Below, in pieces: positions 3,343-12,472 of a stretch of DNA of 64,000 bases; position 1 is the stretch's first letter, and each line of letters begins with the position of its first letter. Made by a program: the position numbers and the translations under genes. The notes under the pieces are model-generated. The model did no database searches and was not told the DNA's origin. It was given only the letters and a program-made list of their open reading frames with translations. The DNA comes from an uncultured Bacteroidales bacterium (lineage in GTDB: Bacteria > Bacteroidota > Bacteroidia > Bacteroidales > F082). The stretch covers positions 62,001 to 126,000 of the forward strand of contig CAMZEK010000001.1 in the NCBI GenBank assembly GCA_947305795.1, in the 5' to 3' direction.

Positions 3343-5380
3343 ACCCAAGACCGACACCCTGTGGAAAACCACTTTGGTATACATTCTCGTACTCGTTTTC
3401 GGCATTGCCATCATTGCCAAAATCGTGCTGATGATCACCAAGGACAGCAAGGAATACCAACAACTTGCTGAGAAAAAGGAATATCGCGTCAGAGAACTGG
3501 AAGCCTCGCGCGGCAACATCTTCAGTGCCGACGGCAACCTGATGGCCACCACCATACCGCTTTATGACATCTTTTTCGACTCCAAATCGGTCGACAGCAC
3601 CGTTTACCATGACAGCCTCGACCGACTCTGCTCCCAATTGGCCAATGCACTACCCAAAAGAAACGCAGAGCAATGGAAGGCGCACATCGAGCAAGGCAAG
3701 CGCAAAGGCAACAGACACAACCTGATAGCGAGAAACGCCAGCCTTGAGCTATGCCGAAAAATGGAGAAATTCGCCATCTTTAACCTTGGACAATACAGAG
3801 GGGGCTTCATTGCAGAGAAAAAGACCCGCCGCGACAAGCCTTACAAAGAACTGGCGGGATGCACCATCGGCTATTATATTAACGATACACTCATGGCGGG
3901 ATTGGAAGGCACCTATAACGAGCAGCTGAAGGGACAAAACGGGCACATGTTGGTCAGGTTGCTCCACCACAAAAGCGAGCTTCCCATTGGCTCTGAGGAC
4001 GACGTTGACGCACAAAACGGCAACGACATCTACACCACCTTCGACGTCAAATTGCAAGACATTGTGGAGAGCGCCCTCAACACTACCATGGTCAACAACA
4101 AAGCCGAACAAGGCTGCGCCATCCTGATGGACGTAGAGACCGGTTACATCCGCGCCATGGCCAACCTAAGTCTCAATCACGAAAGCGGCGTTTACGAAGA
4201 ATCAACCAACTTTGCCTTGGCCGAACGCTACGAGCCCGGATCGGTGTTCAAAATCGCCTCAATGATTGTACTGCTCAACCATAACCCCAACCTCAAACTC
4301 GACGACAAGGTAAACATTGGTGCAGGCGCCATTAAATTCTCAAACCGCACGATGAAAGACGACCACAGCTTTGCCAAGAACGGCATTTGTACCGTACAGG
4401 AGGTCATCGAGCAGTCGTCGAACAAAGGCACGGCCGTACTCATCACGAAAGAGTTTGTGACGCATCCCGAAAAATACGTCGACGGGCTGTATGCCTTGGG
4501 CTTGAACAAGAAAATCGGCACGGGCATCGCGAGGGAGGCCCAACCCTACATCAAACACCCGAGTGACAAGACTCGTGATGGAAGAAAACTTTGGTCGAAC
4601 GTTTCATTACCTTGGATGTCAATCGGCTACGAAGTCAATGTAACTCCTATGCACCTCATTACGCTTTACAATGCTATCGCCAACGGTGGTCGCATGATGA
4701 AGCCGCAGTTCGTCACCGAAATCCGCCGAGGCAACCAAACCATCGAGAAATTCGAGCCGATCGTCCTCAATGAGCAAATTGCCTCGCCCGAATCCATAGA
4801 AAAAGTCAAAACTATGCTGGAAGGTGTCGTCATTCGCGGCACGGCCAAACGGCAGTTCAAGGACTGCGTCGTGAAGGCTGCGGGAAAGACCGGCACAGCG
4901 CAATACTACGACCGCGTCCAAGGCTATGCGTACCATGAGCCAGGCATCGGGAGAAAACTTTACAACACCACTTTCGTGGGCTACTTCCCCGCTGACAAGC
5001 CCAAATACAGCTGCATCGTTGTCGTCAGTCGCGCCAGAGGTCCCTTCTGGGCAGCAGGTAGCGTTTCAGCACCTGGTTTCCGTGAAATCGCTGAAAAGGT
5101 CTATGCCATGCGCCTCGGCATACAAGAAGATGAAACCCTAATCGACACCATCAACCAACCCGATCCAAAACCCGTCATCGACATCCACAACTACAACTTC
5201 CAGTCAGCTCGAGTGCCCGATGTCACTGGCATGGACATCACCGATGCCGTCTACCTGCTCGAAAGCATGGGCGTCAAAACAAACTTCTGCGGTCAAGGCA
5301 GGGTAAAAGAACAATCGCTTCACGCAGGCGACACCCTTTTGGCCAACAGTGTCATGAACCTTAAATTGGAAAGACTATGA
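3332..5380 (+). CDS. ftsI: Septal transpeptidase FtsI (penicillin-binding protein 3 type) with PASTA domain
   Basis: A 682-residue class B penicillin-binding protein with an N-terminal membrane anchor (about residues 12-35). The active-site motifs are all present: SVFK with Ser304, SSN at 362-364 and KTG at 519-521. The last 60 or so residues (VPDVTGMDITDAVYLLESMG...) form one PASTA domain. It crosslinks septal peptidoglycan with FtsW as glycosyltransferase. The start overlaps ftsL and the stop overlaps the murE start as ATGA, indicating coupled translation through this part of the operon. Confidence 0.96.
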   Translation: MKIEPKTDTLWKTTLVYILVLVFGIAIIAKIVLMITKDSKEYQQLAEKKEYRVRELEASRGNIFSADGNLMATTIPLYDIFFDSKSVDSTVYHDSLDRLCSQLANALPKRNAEQWKAHIEQGKRKGNRHNLIARNASLELCRKMEKFAIFNLGQYRGGFIAEKKTRRDKPYKELAGCTIGYYINDTLMAGLEGTYNEQLKGQNGHMLVRLLHHKSELPIGSEDDVDAQNGNDIYTTFDVKLQDIVESALNTTMVNNKAEQGCAILMDVETGYIRAMANLSLNHESGVYEESTNFALAERYEPGSVFKIASMIVLLNHNPNLKLDDKVNIGAGAIKFSNRTMKDDHSFAKNGICTVQEVIEQSSNKGTAVLITKEFVTHPEKYVDGLYALGLNKKIGTGIAREAQPYIKHPSDKTRDGRKLWSNVSLPWMSIGYEVNVTPMHLITLYNAIANGGRMMKPQFVTEIRRGNQTIEKFEPIVLNEQIASPESIEKVKTMLEGVVIRGTAKRQFKDCVVKAAGKTGTAQYYDRVQGYAYHEPGIGRKLYNTTFVGYFPADKPKYSCIVVVSRARGPFWAAGSVSAPGFREIAEKVYAMRLGIQEDETLIDTINQPDPKPVIDIHNYNFQSARVPDVTGMDITDAVYLLESMGVKTNFCGQGRVKEQSLHAGDTLLANSVMNLKLERL

Positions 5381-6834
5381 AAATCAGCGAGATATTAGTC
5401 AATTGCAACTTAATGGAAATTGAAGGCAACAAGGATCTTGACATCCTTAGCCTTACTTTCGACTCGCGTAAAGTTGAAAAAGGCAGCCTATTCTTTGCTG
5501 TGAGAGGTACCCAAGTGGACGGCCACGACTACATCGACAAGGCCATTGAAAAAGGTGCCACAGCCATCGTTTGTGAGAAAATGCCTAAAGTCAAGGTGGA
5601 AGGTGTGACCTACATCCAAGTTGACAACTCGGCTTATGTCTTGGGCGTGGGCGCGGCCAATTTCTTCGGCAACCCTTCCAAAGAGCTGAGACTGGTAGGT
5701 GTAACCGGCACCAACGGCAAAACCACCATAGCCACCTTATTATATAGGCTCTTTACCGACGCTGGCTATGCCTGCGGACTGCTTTCAACCATCGAGAACA
5801 TCGTCAGTCATGAGGTCATCCCTTCTACCCATACCACTCCCGATCCAATTGAGCTTAATTCATTGCTGCACAAGATGGTGGAAAGTGGCTGCGAATACGC
5901 ATTCATGGAAGTCAGCTCACATAGTATCGACCAAGACCGCATCGCCGGACTGCATTTCGCGGGCGGCATCTTCACCAACCTCACCCACGACCACCTGGAC
6001 TACCACAAGACAATGGCCAACTACAGGAACGCCAAGAAAAAATTCTTCGATAACCTTCCTGAAACGGCCTTTGCCCTCACCAATTTAGACGACAAGAACG
6101 GTGCTGTCATGCTTCAAAACACGCGGGCCAAAAAGCTCAGCTACGCCTTGAAGCACGATGCCGACTTCAAAGGTATCATCATGGAGAGCCACTTCGACGG
6201 CATGTTGCTCAAAGTGAACGGCACAGAAGTGTACACCCAACTGGTCGGCAGATTCAACGCCAGCAACTTGTTGGCGATTTATGGTGCAGCGCTGTCATTG
6301 GGCTTCGACAAAGACGAGTTATTAGTGGAAATCAGCAAGTTGCATGGTGCCAACGGTCGCTTCGACATGGTGTATTCCGATAACGGCATTGTCGGCATCA
6401 TTGACTATGCCCACACACCCGACGCCTTGCAGAACGTGTTGGAGACCATCAATGAGGTACGTTGCCACAAGGAAACGCTGTTCACCATCGTGGGCTGCGG
6501 TGGCAACCGCGACACCACAAAACGCCCCGAAATGGCTGCCGTGGCCGTGAAACTCAGCGATCGTGTCATCCTCACTAGCGACAACCCGCGCAACGAAGAC
6601 CCCGACGAAATCATCCGACAGATGAAAGCCGGCATTACCACTGAGGACAGCCGCAAAGTCCTTTCCATCACCAACCGCCACGAAGCCATCCGCACTGGAG
6701 TGGCCCTTGCCAAGAAAGGCGACATCATTCTGATTGCCGGAAAGGGGCACGAGAACTATCAGGAAATCAACGGAATAAAAAACCATTTCGACGACAAGGA
6801 AGAGTTGTCGAAAGCATTTAAGGAGGCTCTCTGA
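5377..6834 (+). CDS. murE: UDP-MurNAc-tripeptide synthetase MurE, meso-DAP type
   Basis: A 485-residue Mur ligase that adds the third amino acid of the stem peptide. The ATP loop GTNGKTT is at residues 111-117. The substrate motif DNPRNEDP at 402-409 has the Arg typical of enzymes using meso-diaminopimelate rather than lysine. All three Mur domains are present, unlike the murD remnant downstream. The start overlaps ftsI by four bases and the stop shares one base with the mraY start (TGATG). Confidence 0.97.
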   Translation: MKISEILVNCNLMEIEGNKDLDILSLTFDSRKVEKGSLFFAVRGTQVDGHDYIDKAIEKGATAIVCEKMPKVKVEGVTYIQVDNSAYVLGVGAANFFGNPSKELRLVGVTGTNGKTTIATLLYRLFTDAGYACGLLSTIENIVSHEVIPSTHTTPDPIELNSLLHKMVESGCEYAFMEVSSHSIDQDRIAGLHFAGGIFTNLTHDHLDYHKTMANYRNAKKKFFDNLPETAFALTNLDDKNGAVMLQNTRAKKLSYALKHDADFKGIIMESHFDGMLLKVNGTEVYTQLVGRFNASNLLAIYGAALSLGFDKDELLVEISKLHGANGRFDMVYSDNGIVGIIDYAHTPDALQNVLETINEVRCHKETLFTIVGCGGNRDTTKRPEMAAVAVKLSDRVILTSDNPRNEDPDEIIRQMKAGITTEDSRKVLSITNRHEAIRTGVALAKKGDIILIAGKGHENYQEINGIKNHFDDKEELSKAFKEAL

Positions 6835-8111
6835 TGTTATACTATCTGTTCAATTATCTGCAACAATGCAACTTCCCGGGTGCGGGTGTGTTCAATTACG
6901 TCACCTTCCGCGCGGCGATGGCGGTTATTCTAGCTCTCATTGTGTCGGTATGGTTCGGCAGCTGGTTCATCAACTTGTTGAAACGCAAGAAAGTCGTTGA
7001 GACCCAACGCGATGAGAAGACAGACCCGTACAACACGCAGAAAAAAGGCGTGCCCACCATGGGCGGCGTCATTATCATCACCGCCATCCTGATTCCCGTG
7101 CTTTTGGTGGCCAAACTCCATAGCATCTACACCATTCTGATGATTGTTACCACCCTGATTCTCGGCATTTTAGGTTTCTCCGACGACTATATCAAGACCT
7201 TCAAGCACCGCAAAGACGGCCTGAAACCCAAGGTAAAATTGGGTGGACAAATCCTGTTGGGCTTGATTGTCGGATTGACCTTGCGTTTTAGTCCTGCCGT
7301 GCAAATCAACGAAACGGTGCATTTAAAAATCGAGAACAACAAGGAAGTGGTTGTGAAAAGCCCTGACGTGAAATCGACGCGGACGACCATCCCCTTCTTA
7401 AAAAACCATAACCTCAACTACGCCGACTTGTTCCGTTGGGCCGGCCCGAAGTGGATGTACAACCTCGCATGGATTTTCTTCGTGCTGCTCACCGTGTTCA
7501 TCGTGGCGGCAGTCTCCAACGGAAGTAACCTCAACGACGGCATGGACGGCATGGCCTCGGGCAATTCTGCCATCATAGGGATAACTTTGGTCATCTTGGC
7601 TTACATATCAAGTAATGCAGTGACCGCCAGCCACTTCGACCTGATGTTCATCCCTGGAAGCGAGGAACTGGTGGTCTTTTTGGCCGCCTTTGTAGGCGCG
7701 CTCATCGGCTTCCTGTGGTTCAACTCCTACCCCGCCCAAATCTTTATGGGCGACACGGGCAGCCTCACCATCGGCGGCATCATCGCGGTGTCGGCCATCA
7801 TCATGCACAAGGAGTTGCTGCTGCCTTTGCTCTGCGGCGTCTTCCTCTTCGAAATCCTTTCCGACCTGGATGTGAAACTCTTCCTCAAGCGCGGCAAGAA
7901 GCACCGTGTTTGGAAGAAAGGCCCTTTGCACGACCATTTCCGTACCAGCTACGACAGCTTCAAGAAGGCCTGGCCCAACTCGACCGTTACCTTCAAGGGT
8001 CGTGGCGAGGGCTACAACACCGTCCATCACGAAGTGAAAATCACCCTCCGTTTCTGGATCGTGACCATCCTCCTTGCAGCATTTACCCTTTTAACCTTCA
8101 AAATCAGATAA
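6834..8111 (+). CDS. mraY: Phospho-MurNAc-pentapeptide translocase MraY
   Basis: A 425-residue polytopic membrane enzyme that transfers phospho-MurNAc-pentapeptide to undecaprenyl phosphate, giving lipid I. Motifs seen: DEKTDPYNTQKKGVPTMGG, GFSDDY, NLNDGMDGMASG, FMGDTGSLTIGG and a PLHDHF loop in place of the HHH found in many phyla; I believe the HDH form is common in Bacteroidota. It is longer than the usual 360 residues because of a hydrophilic insert around 155-200 and a C-terminal loop insert. It is followed by the only loose gap of the cluster, 102 bases. Confidence 0.95.
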   Translation: MLYYLFNYLQQCNFPGAGVFNYVTFRAAMAVILALIVSVWFGSWFINLLKRKKVVETQRDEKTDPYNTQKKGVPTMGGVIIITAILIPVLLVAKLHSIYTILMIVTTLILGILGFSDDYIKTFKHRKDGLKPKVKLGGQILLGLIVGLTLRFSPAVQINETVHLKIENNKEVVVKSPDVKSTRTTIPFLKNHNLNYADLFRWAGPKWMYNLAWIFFVLLTVFIVAAVSNGSNLNDGMDGMASGNSAIIGITLVILAYISSNAVTASHFDLMFIPGSEELVVFLAAFVGALIGFLWFNSYPAQIFMGDTGSLTIGGIIAVSAIIMHKELLLPLLCGVFLFEILSDLDVKLFLKRGKKHRVWKKGPLHDHFRTSYDSFKKAWPNSTVTFKGRGEGYNTVHHEVKITLRFWIVTILLAAFTLLTFKIR

Positions 8112-8117
8112 ATAGAA

Positions 8118-8159
8118 TTCAAGATTCAAAATTCAAAATTTAAAATTTAAAATTTAAGA
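8118..8159. repeat. Six tandem 7-base units in the mraY-murD gap
   Basis: Six consecutive heptamers of pattern ATT[C/T]AA[A/G]: ATTCAAG, ATTCAAA, ATTCAAA, ATTTAAA, ATTTAAA, ATTTAAG. They fill the start of the 102-base gap where the N-terminal part of murD would be expected. AT-rich tandem strings of this kind occur between Bacteroidota genes. Here the repeat coincides with the missing gene segment. The 54 bases between it and the next start show no recognisable murD sequence. Confidence 0.9.
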
Positions 8160-8213
8160 ACTCAATACAGTTGACAACCGCATCCTGTTTGTAATAGAAA
8201 AACCCAAAATGAT

Positions 8214-8771
8214 ATGACTTACTTGGAAAAACTAATCAATACACGACAGAGGCCACAGAGCATGGTTGAAGGTATTTCATCCATGATCCTCCAAATCAGG
8301 AAGGAGAACATCAAGCAATGCCTCAGCGACCTCGACACCATGAGGCATCGGCAGGACTATATCGCCACCATTGATGGCGTGATGTACTACGACGACTCGA
8401 AGGCTGAGAATGTCAATGCCACATGGTTCACCTTTGAGAACATCGTCAAGCCCGTGGTGTGGATTGCTGGAGGCAACGACAAAGGCACCGACTTCAGTGA
8501 CCTGAAGCCTTCGGTAAGAGAAAACGTCAGGGCCCTTATCTGCATAGGACCCAACAACACTAACCTGAGAAAGGCATTCAAAGGCGACATCAACGAAATC
8601 CGTCAAGCCGAAAGTATTGAAAAAGCCGTGGAAATGGCTTCACAAATCGCACAAGAAGACGATATCGTGCTGTTTTCGCCCGCTTGCCATGCTGAAAGCG
8701 AGAACAACGAGGAAAGAGGCAACCGCTACATTGAATCCGTGAGGAGACTGGAAAATGAACGTAATCAATAA
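8214..8771 (+). pseudogene. murD: MurD remnant: C-terminal domain only
   Basis: A 185-codon open frame matching only the end of MurD (UDP-MurNAc-Ala:D-Glu ligase, normally about 450 residues). Similarity begins near SMVEGISSMILQIRKENI, the end of the central domain, and continues through RHRQDYIATIDGV, DDSKAENVNAT, AGGNDKGTDFS and SPAC...EERG. The UDP-binding domain and the whole ATP-binding domain with its GKTT loop are absent. The D-Glu-side loop, SPACASFDxF in most MurDs, reads SPACHAESENN: two residues shorter and lacking the Phe. The DDSK lysine survives. It cannot work alone as a ligase, yet the frame is open and overlaps ftsW by 17 bases. A two-codon frame ATG-ATA-TGA at 8209 overlaps the start. 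It could be a decaying gene, a repurposed domain or an assembly artefact. Confidence 0.8.
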
Positions 8772-10044
8772 AATATTGCGTGGTGACAAAGTTGTATGGG
8801 TAGTGGCGCTCTTGTTGGGAACCATTTCCTTGATTGTGGTTTACAGTGCGTCAAGTGCCTTGGTAGTCAAGAACTACGGTGGCAACACAGGCCGTTTGCT
8901 TCTGAAGCATTCCGGCACGCTGCTCATCGGCTATGCCATGATGTTTGCCGCCTACAAGATTGATTACCGGCGTTTTGCCAAATTCGCATGGTTCCTGCTG
9001 ATACCTTGCCTTGCATTGCTTCTCTATACGTTGGTTTTCGGAAAGCATATCAACGCCGCAAGCCGTACCATTAACATCTTCGGCATCTCATTCCAACCGA
9101 GTGAAATCGCCAAAATCATCCTCATCACCTACTTGGCGCGACAATTGGTGATGATGGGCGACCGATTGACCCGCTTCAAAGATGTCATCCTCTATCTAGG
9201 GCTGCCTATTTTGCTTACCGCTGCGCTCATTTTCCCTGAAAACCTGTCAACGGCAGCCATCTTGTTAGTCGTTTGCATGGTGTTGCTGTTCATCGGAAGA
9301 GTTAAGTTCCTGCACATCCTCGCCATCGTTGGCATCGGTGTGGTGGGATTGGGCTTCTATATCGCCTTTGACGCGGCCAAAACCGAAATCGGAAACAAAC
9401 GAGCAGAAAAGGAAAGTCGGAAAAGCGACCGAGAAGTGGTCTTCGTCCCAAAAAAAACGCGTATCAAGACGTGGGCCAACCGCCTCGACGCCATGGGCGA
9501 AAGCAAAGAAGAAGGCTTCGACCCCTTCGATGACCACCACTACCAGCAAACCTACGCCAAAATCGCTGTGGCCACTGGCTCAGTGTTCGGCAAAGGCCCC
9601 GGCAAGAGCGAGCAACGCAACTTCCTGCCCCACCCTTACTCCGACTTCATCTATGCCATCATCATCGAAGAATACGGCCTCATTGGCGCTATTATCGTAC
9701 TGCTACTCTATGTCATCCTGTTCACGAGGGTTATCCGAATCGTCCACAAACGACCACTTACCTTCGGGGCACTCATGGCGTTCGGACTGGGATTCCTCAT
9801 CATCCTTCAGGCCATGATCAACATGGGTGTTTCCATCGGGCTGTTGCCCGTCACGGGACAGCCGCTACCCTTCATCAGTATGGGTGGTTCCTCCATGATG
9901 GCCACTGGATTTATCCTTGGCATGATTCTGAGCGTCACCCGAAATATCGAGGAAGAGACTGAGCAAGAACAAATTGAACAAGAAACAACAACCGAAGAAG
10001 TAATTGAAGATACCTATGAAAACGAACCCGAAAATCGTGATTAG
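8755..10044 (+). CDS. ftsW: Septal peptidoglycan glycosyltransferase FtsW
   Basis: A 429-residue SEDS-family membrane protein that polymerises lipid II at the septum together with FtsI. It has multiple hydrophobic helices, the family block GPGKSEQRNFLPHPYSDFIYAIIIEEYG, and the end motif PFISMGGSSMM. A hydrophilic loop rich in charged residues occupies about 205-255. The C-terminus is an acidic tail of Glu, Gln and Thr (about residues 400-429) whose coding sequence overlaps the start of murG by 29 bases. Its ATG lies inside the murD remnant, so ftsW translation may depend on ribosomes reading that remnant. Confidence 0.95.
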   Translation: MNVINKILRGDKVVWVVALLLGTISLIVVYSASSALVVKNYGGNTGRLLLKHSGTLLIGYAMMFAAYKIDYRRFAKFAWFLLIPCLALLLYTLVFGKHINAASRTINIFGISFQPSEIAKIILITYLARQLVMMGDRLTRFKDVILYLGLPILLTAALIFPENLSTAAILLVVCMVLLFIGRVKFLHILAIVGIGVVGLGFYIAFDAAKTEIGNKRAEKESRKSDREVVFVPKKTRIKTWANRLDAMGESKEEGFDPFDDHHYQQTYAKIAVATGSVFGKGPGKSEQRNFLPHPYSDFIYAIIIEEYGLIGAIIVLLLYVILFTRVIRIVHKRPLTFGALMAFGLGFLIILQAMINMGVSIGLLPVTGQPLPFISMGGSSMMATGFILGMILSVTRNIEEETEQEQIEQETTTEEVIEDTYENEPENRD

Positions 10045-11131: not shown

Positions 11132-12472
11132 ATGAGCGACAGGAAAGGACATACCATTTATTTTTTGGGCATCGGCGGCATCGGCATGAGCGCCTTGGCA
11201 CGGTATTACCGCAGCCTCGGCTACGCCGTCGCTGGCTATGACCTTACCCCTTCCCCGCTCACACAACAGCTAGAAAATGAGGGCATGGCAATCCATTATG
11301 AAGACAATCCAACTTTATTGCCTGCCCTCATTAGCTTTGTGGTTTACACCCCCGCTGTGCCGAAAAACCTCAAAGAATTCGAGGCATTGCGGAAACGAGG
11401 CCTCCCCATTCTAAAACGCGCCGAAGCCTTGGGGCGCATCTCAAAAGATCACTTCACTATCGCCATTGCGGGCACACACGGCAAAACCACCACCACCGCC
11501 ATGGCCGCCCACATCCTGAACGCTAACGGCAAGGACACCACTGCTTTCATCGGCGGCATCGCCAACAACTTCGGAAGCAACCTGCTACTCGGCAAAGGCA
11601 CAGGCAGCCTCTTGGTCGTGGAAGCCGACGAGTTCGACCGCTCCTTCTTGCAACTGCGCCCCGCCATCAGCGTCATCAACTCCATCGACGCCGACCATTT
11701 GGACATCTACGGCGACCGACAGCACTTGGTGAAGAGTTTCAACGAATTTGCGCAACTAACCGAAAAACAACTTATTGTAAAAGAGCATCTTGAAATTGAA
11801 GGCAAAGGCATCCTTCGTTTCGGCTTTGACAAAGACAACAACTACCGCGCCGAAATCGTCAAGACAGAAAACGGCTTCACCGACTTCGTGGTTTATAGCG
11901 AGGGCACAAAGACCGAAATCCGTCTGCCGATGGCAGGCCGCCACAATGTGCTGAATGCCACGGCTGCCTTTGCAACTGCACGTCAGGCTGGAATCTCAGC
12001 TGAAGAAATCGCAAAAGCATTATCCACCTTCAAAGGGGTAAAGCGTCGTTTTGACATCCGCATAAACAACGAAAAATATTGTTATATCGACGATTATGCC
12101 CATCATCCTGAAGAAATCAGGGCCTGCTTGCAAGCCGTCAGAGACGCTTTCCCGAAACAGAAACTCACCTTGGTCTTCCAGCCTCACTTGTTCAGCCGAA
12201 CCCGCGATTTCATGGACGACTTCGCACAAATTCTGGGTATGGCCGACGAGCTGATCCTGCTCGACATCTATCCGGCCCGCGAGAAGCCCATCGAAGGCAT
12301 CACCTCAAAAACTTTGTTGGACAAAGTGCAATTGAACGACAAGAAGCTCTGTCCTAAGTCTGAGCTTATCAGCTTGATTGACAGCGAGAAGCCCGAACTA
12401 TTAGTCACAATGGGTGCTGGCGACATCGACCGTTTTGTTGAACCCTTGGAAAAACTGATTGCGACATGGTAA
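11132..12472 (+). CDS. murC: UDP-N-acetylmuramate--L-alanine ligase MurC
   Basis: A 446-residue full-length Mur ligase that adds L-Ala, the first stem-peptide residue. The dinucleotide-like loop FLGIGGIGMSALA is at residues 11-23 and the ATP loop GTHGKTTTT at 114-122; DDYAHHPEEI lies in the C-terminal half. The intact MurC and MurE on either side of the murD remnant show that the truncation is specific to murD. Its end overlaps ftsQ by seven bases. Confidence 0.97.
   Translation: MSDRKGHTIYFLGIGGIGMSALARYYRSLGYAVAGYDLTPSPLTQQLENEGMAIHYEDNPTLLPALISFVVYTPAVPKNLKEFEALRKRGLPILKRAEALGRISKDHFTIAIAGTHGKTTTTAMAAHILNANGKDTTAFIGGIANNFGSNLLLGKGTGSLLVVEADEFDRSFLQLRPAISVINSIDADHLDIYGDRQHLVKSFNEFAQLTEKQLIVKEHLEIEGKGILRFGFDKDNNYRAEIVKTENGFTDFVVYSEGTKTEIRLPMAGRHNVLNATAAFATARQAGISAEEIAKALSTFKGVKRRFDIRINNEKYCYIDDYAHHPEEIRACLQAVRDAFPKQKLTLVFQPHLFSRTRDFMDDFAQILGMADELILLDIYPAREKPIEGITSKTLLDKVQLNDKKLCPKSELISLIDSEKPELLVTMGAGDIDRFVEPLEKLIATW

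Follow-up and report, generated by a model that had tools for sequence, protein, structure and literature searches.

A murD gene reduced to its C-terminal domain in Bacteroidales and its association with MurD2/MurL-type genes

The murD slot in the window and in related genomes

The DNA analyzed here, referred to as the window, is a stretch of 64,000 nucleotides from an uncultured Bacteroidales bacterium whose 2.56-Mb assembly consists of 88 contigs and is 80% complete. The murD slot of its otherwise intact dcw cluster encodes the C-terminal domain (CTD) of MurD only. MurD is a textbook example of an essential enzyme and a target of antibiotics. The features of the locus are as follows.

5377..6834, + strand: murE, complete, with a full-length family match
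6834..8111, + strand: mraY, the upstream neighbor (ORF)
8112..8213, + strand: AT-rich spacer of 102 bases in the slot of the MurD N-terminal and central domains
8214..8771, + strand: CTD-only murD ORF of 185 aa, comprising the end of the MurD central domain and the CTD
8214..8216, + strand: start codon of the CTD ORF, aligned with an internal Met of full-length murD that is the putative nested start
8755..10044, + strand: ftsW, the downstream neighbor (ORF)
11132-12472: murC, full length by ORF and family scan

In the family scan, the ORF at 8214-8771 matched TIGR01087 (MurD) at positions 286-440 of 441 only (E 4e-34), and its score of 118.4 bits is below the family cut-off of 211.95. Mur_ligase_C (PF02875) was matched at E 1.4e-12, with 49 bits against a cut-off of 28.4, and all sequence matches in the PDB were MurD. 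No MurD N-terminal or central domain was found in the window sequence upstream of 8214, where mraY ends at 8111 and the AT-rich spacer follows. These results bear out the initial annotation, which had described a murD cut to its C-terminal domain between mraY and ftsW, complete murE and murC genes, an altered loop reading SPACHAESENN, and an overlap of the remnant with ftsW, which amounts to 17 bases (8755-8771). Its span of 8112..8771 holds for the end of the ORF, but coding starts at 8214.

We compared the locus in related genomes, a check that had been proposed along with the annotation. Of 35 genomes from the genus, 32 have a CTD ORF of 176-195 aa, and the three that do not are 62-72% complete. 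ftsW lies downstream at 32 of the 32 loci and mraY directly upstream at 31; at the remaining one (G015), mraY is outside the fetched stretch and murE is next. The spacer between mraY and the CTD ORF measures 3-112 bases in the 31 genomes with mraY found upstream, so that the 102-base junction, noted at first as an outlier, is long compared with other junctions of the cluster but falls inside the genus-wide range. Several same-genus loci lack any overlap between the CTD ORF and ftsW.

A second collection gave the same arrangement, with the CTD ORF and ftsW at 76 of 76 loci and mraY directly upstream at 72. The N-terminal part of MurD was found upstream at none of the 76, four weak hits coinciding with the position of murE. 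Since 28 of the 76 contigs are the same size as contigs of the first set and 3 the same size as other same-genus contigs, these are probable repeats, leaving ∼45 additional contigs. The contigs of this collection are labeled mostly as uncultured rumen and gut Bacteroidales, one of them as Candidatus Limimorpha equi. At five loci (L100, which is that of G015, L172, L175, L177, and L179), mraY is absent between murE and the CTD ORF, which still precedes ftsW; mraY may have moved elsewhere in these cases. The contig of L177 is the same size as that of G015.

MurD2/MurL-type genes and their distribution

A search for Mur ligase middle domains identified seven places in the window genome. One of them, on contig C16, holds a full-length MurD-like ligase by its sequence and by family scans, and this MurD2-type gene adjoins a MurL homologue with an overlap of 8 bases. 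The neighbor matched positions 5-410 of 447 of the MurL model (E 5.8e-79) at 265.7 bits, below the strict cut-off of 700 of a model named for Xanthomonadales, and we infer that it is a homologue with the same job. In Xanthomonas oryzae, according to the available text of PMC8788868, MurD2 adds L-Glu, MurL epimerizes the added Glu, and the L-Glu preference of MurD2 is set by E197 and R358. At the columns of D182, K348, and K319, E, R, and I were present in 21 of the 21 MurD2 proteins read, which came from the window genome, 13 other CTD-only genomes, and 7 genomes with full-length murD. Canonical full-length MurD holds D and K at the D182 and K348 columns in both MurL-negative (29 of 29) and MurL-positive (42 of 42) genomes. 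No match to the glutamate racemase MurI was found in the window genome or its 35 same-genus relatives. Together, the MurD2 residues, the adjoining MurL homologue, and the lack of a MurI match indicate that a MurD2/MurL route has probably replaced MurI/MurD in the window genome. Of the possibilities raised in the initial annotation, a full murD at another place or replacement by another ligase fits: the genome search that it proposed led to a MurD-like ligase with MurD2 residues, beside a MurL homologue on another contig.

MurL and MurD2 are fused in one frame of ∼885-1000 aa at loci L306 (G024) and L311 (G111), where the fusion was read as a single protein of 901 and 885 aa, respectively; judged by frame length, the fusion also occurs in G019, G021, G028, G031, G136, G200, and G274. 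Reading of the window genome (G000) also identified two MurF-like genes, on C22 and C25 (L002 and L003), one of them lone and the other longer, continuing into an alanine-racemase-like part.

In a first survey of 60 genomes (that of the window and 59 relatives), MurL was present in 39, one case being a weak fragment only (G023), and MurI in 17, with no overlap. An order survey covered 247 Bacteroidales, the window's genome and others at least 90% complete. MurL was found in 81 and MurI above cut-off in 154, and none of the 247 had both MurL and MurI above cut-off; 16 MurL-positive genomes gave MurI hits far below it. Full-length murD was called from the best TIGR01087 E-values and, in 80 genomes, also from frame lengths with a CTD profile (77 of the 81 MurL-positive genomes, the other four being already known, plus G048, G050, and G178).

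Among the 81 MurL-positive genomes, 43 have a full-length murD and 34 are CTD-only, the CTD-only genomes belonging to 18 families. No CTD was found in the other 4. In three of these (G055, G085, and G156) the best FtsW hit was weak, so that this part of the dcw cluster was probably not assembled; in the fourth (G109) ftsW lies outside the cluster, and the genome seems to do without the CTD. A MurD2-level TIGR01087 score (1e-81 or better) was obtained in 31 of the 34 CTD-only genomes and a weaker one in G087, G091, and G165. The full canonical TIGR01087 score (1e-109 or better) was obtained in 163 of the 166 MurL-negative genomes; the rest are G050, with a CTD-like ORF, G178, with a murD apparently split over two contigs, and G157, with none. 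CTD-only and full-length genes thus stand at 34:43 in MurL-positive and 1:163 in MurL-negative genomes (Fisher p 8e-19, uncorrected for relatedness). G136 had first been counted as truncated and was rejected as a CTD-only case, as its frame runs off the contig and represents a full gene cut by the contig end.

A CTD without a convincing MurL occurs in G023 (97% complete) and G050 (98%). In G050 the ORF is divergent, encodes 170 aa (L112), and lies between mraY and ftsW; neither MurI, MurL, nor a MurD-level ligase was found in that genome. In a Bacteroidota-wide sample containing few Bacteroidales, MurL was convincing in the window genome only, with 2 weak hits among 296.

The catalytic residues that we checked are kept in the full-length MurD of MurL-positive genomes, apart from one protein with Ala at S415 and a gap at the P-loop column in 3 of 42. 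These proteins are therefore probably still enzymes, and two routes may coexist. The 43 genomes concerned hold canonical MurD with intact D-Glu residues and have no MurI above cut-off. In a hand count, class-IV aminotransferases (∼250-325 aa, TIGR01121 E up to 1e-11) were present in 31 of these 43 genomes versus 4 of the 34 CTD-only ones (Fisher p 8e-8, uncorrected for relatedness). Two of those counted exceed the size limit (451 aa in G038 and 370 aa in G061), and none reached the TIGR01121 family cut-off. Scans of 10 of the 20 fetched aminotransferase loci gave three PabC-like proteins and one IlvE over cut-off, the rest having no clear family. A class-IV aminotransferase might supply D-Glu where full-length murD stays.

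The inner start site of murD

In the order survey, the 30 other CTD-only ORFs from beyond the genus are 176-199 aa long, 15 of them exactly 182. CTD-only ORFs start at or next to the Met of M-T-L/I-E-x-L-A-L-Q-G-K/R-H-N, which is the usual reading of this segment in MurL-positive full-length murD. The inner Met is found in 40 of 42 MurL-positive full-length proteins (41 of the survey's 43 plus that of G048) and in 22 of 29 MurL-negative ones; the two MurL-positive proteins without an aligned Met (G172 and G127) have one a codon or two earlier.

We performed a start-signal test in which synonymous codons were shuffled within each gene. AT enrichment at the inner Met of MurL-positive full-length genes was z 1.41 ± 0.20 (Wilcoxon p 2e-7; 41 genes, 26 families), with a mean rank of 0.84 within the gene, compared with z 0.20 ± 0.13 in 28 MurL-negative genes (difference p 8.5e-6). 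In the averaged profile of the MurL-positive genes, the inner Met is the top peak (1.49), followed by peaks of 0.74, ∼15 codons upstream, and 0.56; the MurL-negative profile has no peak there (0.21). RNA structure at the inner Met was weaker than in the shuffles in MurL-positive (z 0.43 ± 0.14) but not in MurL-negative genes (−0.30 ± 0.21). No excess of Shine-Dalgarno-like motifs was found at the inner start (0.17 versus 0.15), which is usual for Bacteroidota. An internal promoter was rejected as the cause of the AT signal, because TAnnTTTG showed no excess upstream of the inner Met (0.02 observed versus 0.02 shuffled per MurL-positive gene). Synonymous A was in excess at −19, −16, −13, −10, +5, +8, and +14 in MurL-positive genes, with the opposite at −15, and only the excess at +8 is common to MurL-negative genes. 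According to the accessible part of PMC6847099, initiation in Flavobacterium benefits from A at −3, −6, −12, and −13. These data indicate that a start-like signal at the inner Met exceeds the demand of the protein sequence in full-length murD of MurL-positive genomes only.

Such a site could instead be an old feature of the lineage, or an element unconnected with initiation, at which truncations end as it offers the first usable Met. MurL-negative murD often has this Met too, and the MurL-positive genomes may be one clade, in which case the start signal and the associated residues may have arisen once and then been kept. We regard this explanation as rather unlikely, since the signal lies at synonymous sites, extends over 26 families, forms the peak of the gene, and is missing at other internal Mets in the same test (mean z −0.11). 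In addition, the raw AT content of the 21 bases upstream and the first nine codons is like that of real starts (0.75/0.65 at the MurL-positive inner Met versus 0.73/0.65 at real murD starts; 0.64/0.59 at MurL-negative internal sites). We therefore favor a nested, internally started, and presumably non-catalytic MurD-CTD protein that would outlive the ligase.

CTD-only and full-length MurL-positive members occur together in eight families (f4, f6, f13, f27, f35, f49, f71, and f90), in three of them within one genus (g6, g35, and g49), and it is thus likely that truncation recurred in different families. A CTD-region tree, from which 20 same-genus rows were left out, gave a minimum of 8 changes with or without the four longest branches, and still 8 with G136 recoded as full length; its well-supported branches force only 2.

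Constraint on the domain and its possible role

The codon-model omega of three CTD sets was 0.093 (15 sequences, the window's clade), 0.024 (7), and 0.103 (8), and that of the neighbors was 0.063 for ftsW and 0.040 for mraY (14 sequences each). Pairwise omega medians were 0.199, 0.124, and 0.123 for the CTD sets, compared with 0.121 for ftsW and 0.058 for mraY. In the window's clade, the rate of evolution is higher for the CTD than for the adjacent genes, yet the constraint on it is clear. The dN/dS check named in the initial annotation thus revealed purifying selection (omega 0.02-0.10), by which a pseudogene is rejected, in agreement with the suggestion that a new role had preserved the frame. 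A replacement ligase and a new role had been anticipated; the order-wide truncation and the inner start site had not.

MurD domain limits and the R302 hinge were taken from the accessible part of PMC4816537. The equivalents of T321 and F422 are lost in the window CTD and that of K348 is still K; within the genus, the K348 equivalent varies and the D317 equivalent is invariant. Six residues, namely T2, E4, A7, and Q9 after the inner Met and also R29 and W83, show conservation among full-length proteins from MurL-positive genomes and less of it among MurL-negative ones. Conservation in CTD-only proteins is 0.91 for R29 and 1.00 for W83 but only 0.53-0.64 for T2, E4, A7, and Q9; D61, like W83, is fully conserved in the CTD-only rows. 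Catalysis by the CTD fragment alone is unlikely. What the computations establish is that the fragment exists and is constrained, that it is linked to MurL, that its start point is shared, and that the start-like signal is present.

From these sequence comparisons, we propose that glutamate enters the stem peptide through MurD2/MurL, by ligation of L-Glu and subsequent ATP-dependent epimerization, with the genes outside the dcw cluster. That glutamate takes this way and that the MurI/MurD route is gone is, in our judgment, very probable. The dcw murD of MurL-positive Bacteroidales would have carried a nested product, a separate protein of the last ∼182 residues translated from an internal start. 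With the ligase no longer needed, ∼780 bases would have been deleted back to the internal start, probably repeatedly in different families. This course of events, a nested CTD product followed by deletion to its start, appears fairly probable. In MurL-positive species, full-length murD would make the CTD as a second protein, which would have rendered the deletions tolerable, and the CTD would serve MurD2/MurL, staying as a non-catalytic factor between mraY and ftsW. The most likely role that we can name is that of an adaptor that would tether MurD2/MurL, relocated as a pair, to the assembly of MurE, MraY, and MurG encoded in the dcw cluster; this is a tentative guess from the binding of Mur ligases to MurG and MreB reported in the available text of PMC6420597. 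Taken as a whole, with MurD2/MurL replacement, a nested CTD product, deletion to the inner start, and retention of the CTD, this is the best explanation, and we lean toward it with some confidence.

The CTD might act as a helper subunit in MurD2 or MurL, for example in nucleotide or dipeptide binding, instead of a tether. Two features, the CTD-only state and the inner-start signal, are associated with MurL, the residues taken as the equivalents of R302 and D317 stay conserved, and near-canonical loops persist in several families. We consider such a role improbable, as MurD2 has its own CTD and the losses and the variation at the T321, F422, and K348 equivalents described above argue against it. 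Still less probable is retention of the stretch as DNA or RNA, carrying promoter or translational-coupling signals for ftsW and later genes. The ORF always precedes ftsW at same-genus loci, and the two overlap at several, including that of the window, but the constraint acts on the protein, several relatives lack the overlap, and no TAnnTTTG excess precedes the inner Met. Retention solely for translation of ftsW, as first suggested, explains neither the conserved protein sequence nor the same-genus loci at which the two frames are separate. A decaying remnant, that is, a dead murD whose frame is open by chance, is hardly credible. Partial loss of the catalytic residues and the greater length of CTD-only branches relative to full-length ones would fit decay, but the low omega and the full conservation of D61 and W83 speak against it, as does the presence of an open frame, similar in length and position, in 32 of 35 same-genus genomes and across 18 families. 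Finally, an assembly that lost about 800 bases, an option raised at first and conceivable given the fragmented window genome and the contig-end cut in G136, is refuted by the identical structure of the relatives' loci in the genus and the second collection.

Returning to the nested CTD product retained beside a MurD2/MurL route, if this account is true, the D-Glu stem is made by another route in a large share of the Bacteroidales, uncultured gut lineages among them, and many of these would escape inhibitors of MurD or MurI. With the nested CTD, unusually, a second product in an essential gene would have been exposed by loss of the first, and a natural lone domain would allow non-catalytic roles of Mur ligase domains to be tested. 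In its most general form, the proposal is that about a third of the sampled Bacteroidales run peptidoglycan synthesis via MurD2/MurL, that their murD is a two-in-one gene whose nested CTD is a dedicated non-catalytic factor of this route, and that the gene was stripped to the CTD several times; we see the chances of this full statement as evenly balanced.

Compared with MurD2/MurL of X. oryzae, the window genome has the same L-Glu-type E and R beside a MurL homologue and no MurI found, but it belongs to Bacteroidales, which are absent from the list of taxa in the available text of the review (PMC8788868); moreover, MurL and MurD2 are fused in some Bacteroidales, and the old dcw murD is either CTD-only or whole. 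The Mur ligase assemblies on MurG and MreB provide a precedent for a non-catalytic role of a Mur ligase domain, and a lone Mur ligase C-terminal domain is not described in the accessible portion of that work (PMC6420597). A literature search of titles and abstract openings in openly accessible journals returned no report of MurL/MurD2 in Bacteroidales or of a lone MurD CTD. The window ORF resembles canonical MurD (TIGR01087) in its C-terminal domain and in its dcw location, flanked by mraY and ftsW, but it lacks the N-terminal and central domains, scores below the family cut-off, and has a partly changed D-Glu site. Shigella spa33 is reportedly a bacterial gene with an in-frame internal start (PMC6925163). 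Likewise, two proteins would come from one murD gene, a full-length one and a separate C-terminal one, whereas in Bacteroidales, where initiation at the inner site is deduced from sequence, many lineages have lost the long form and the short form persists.
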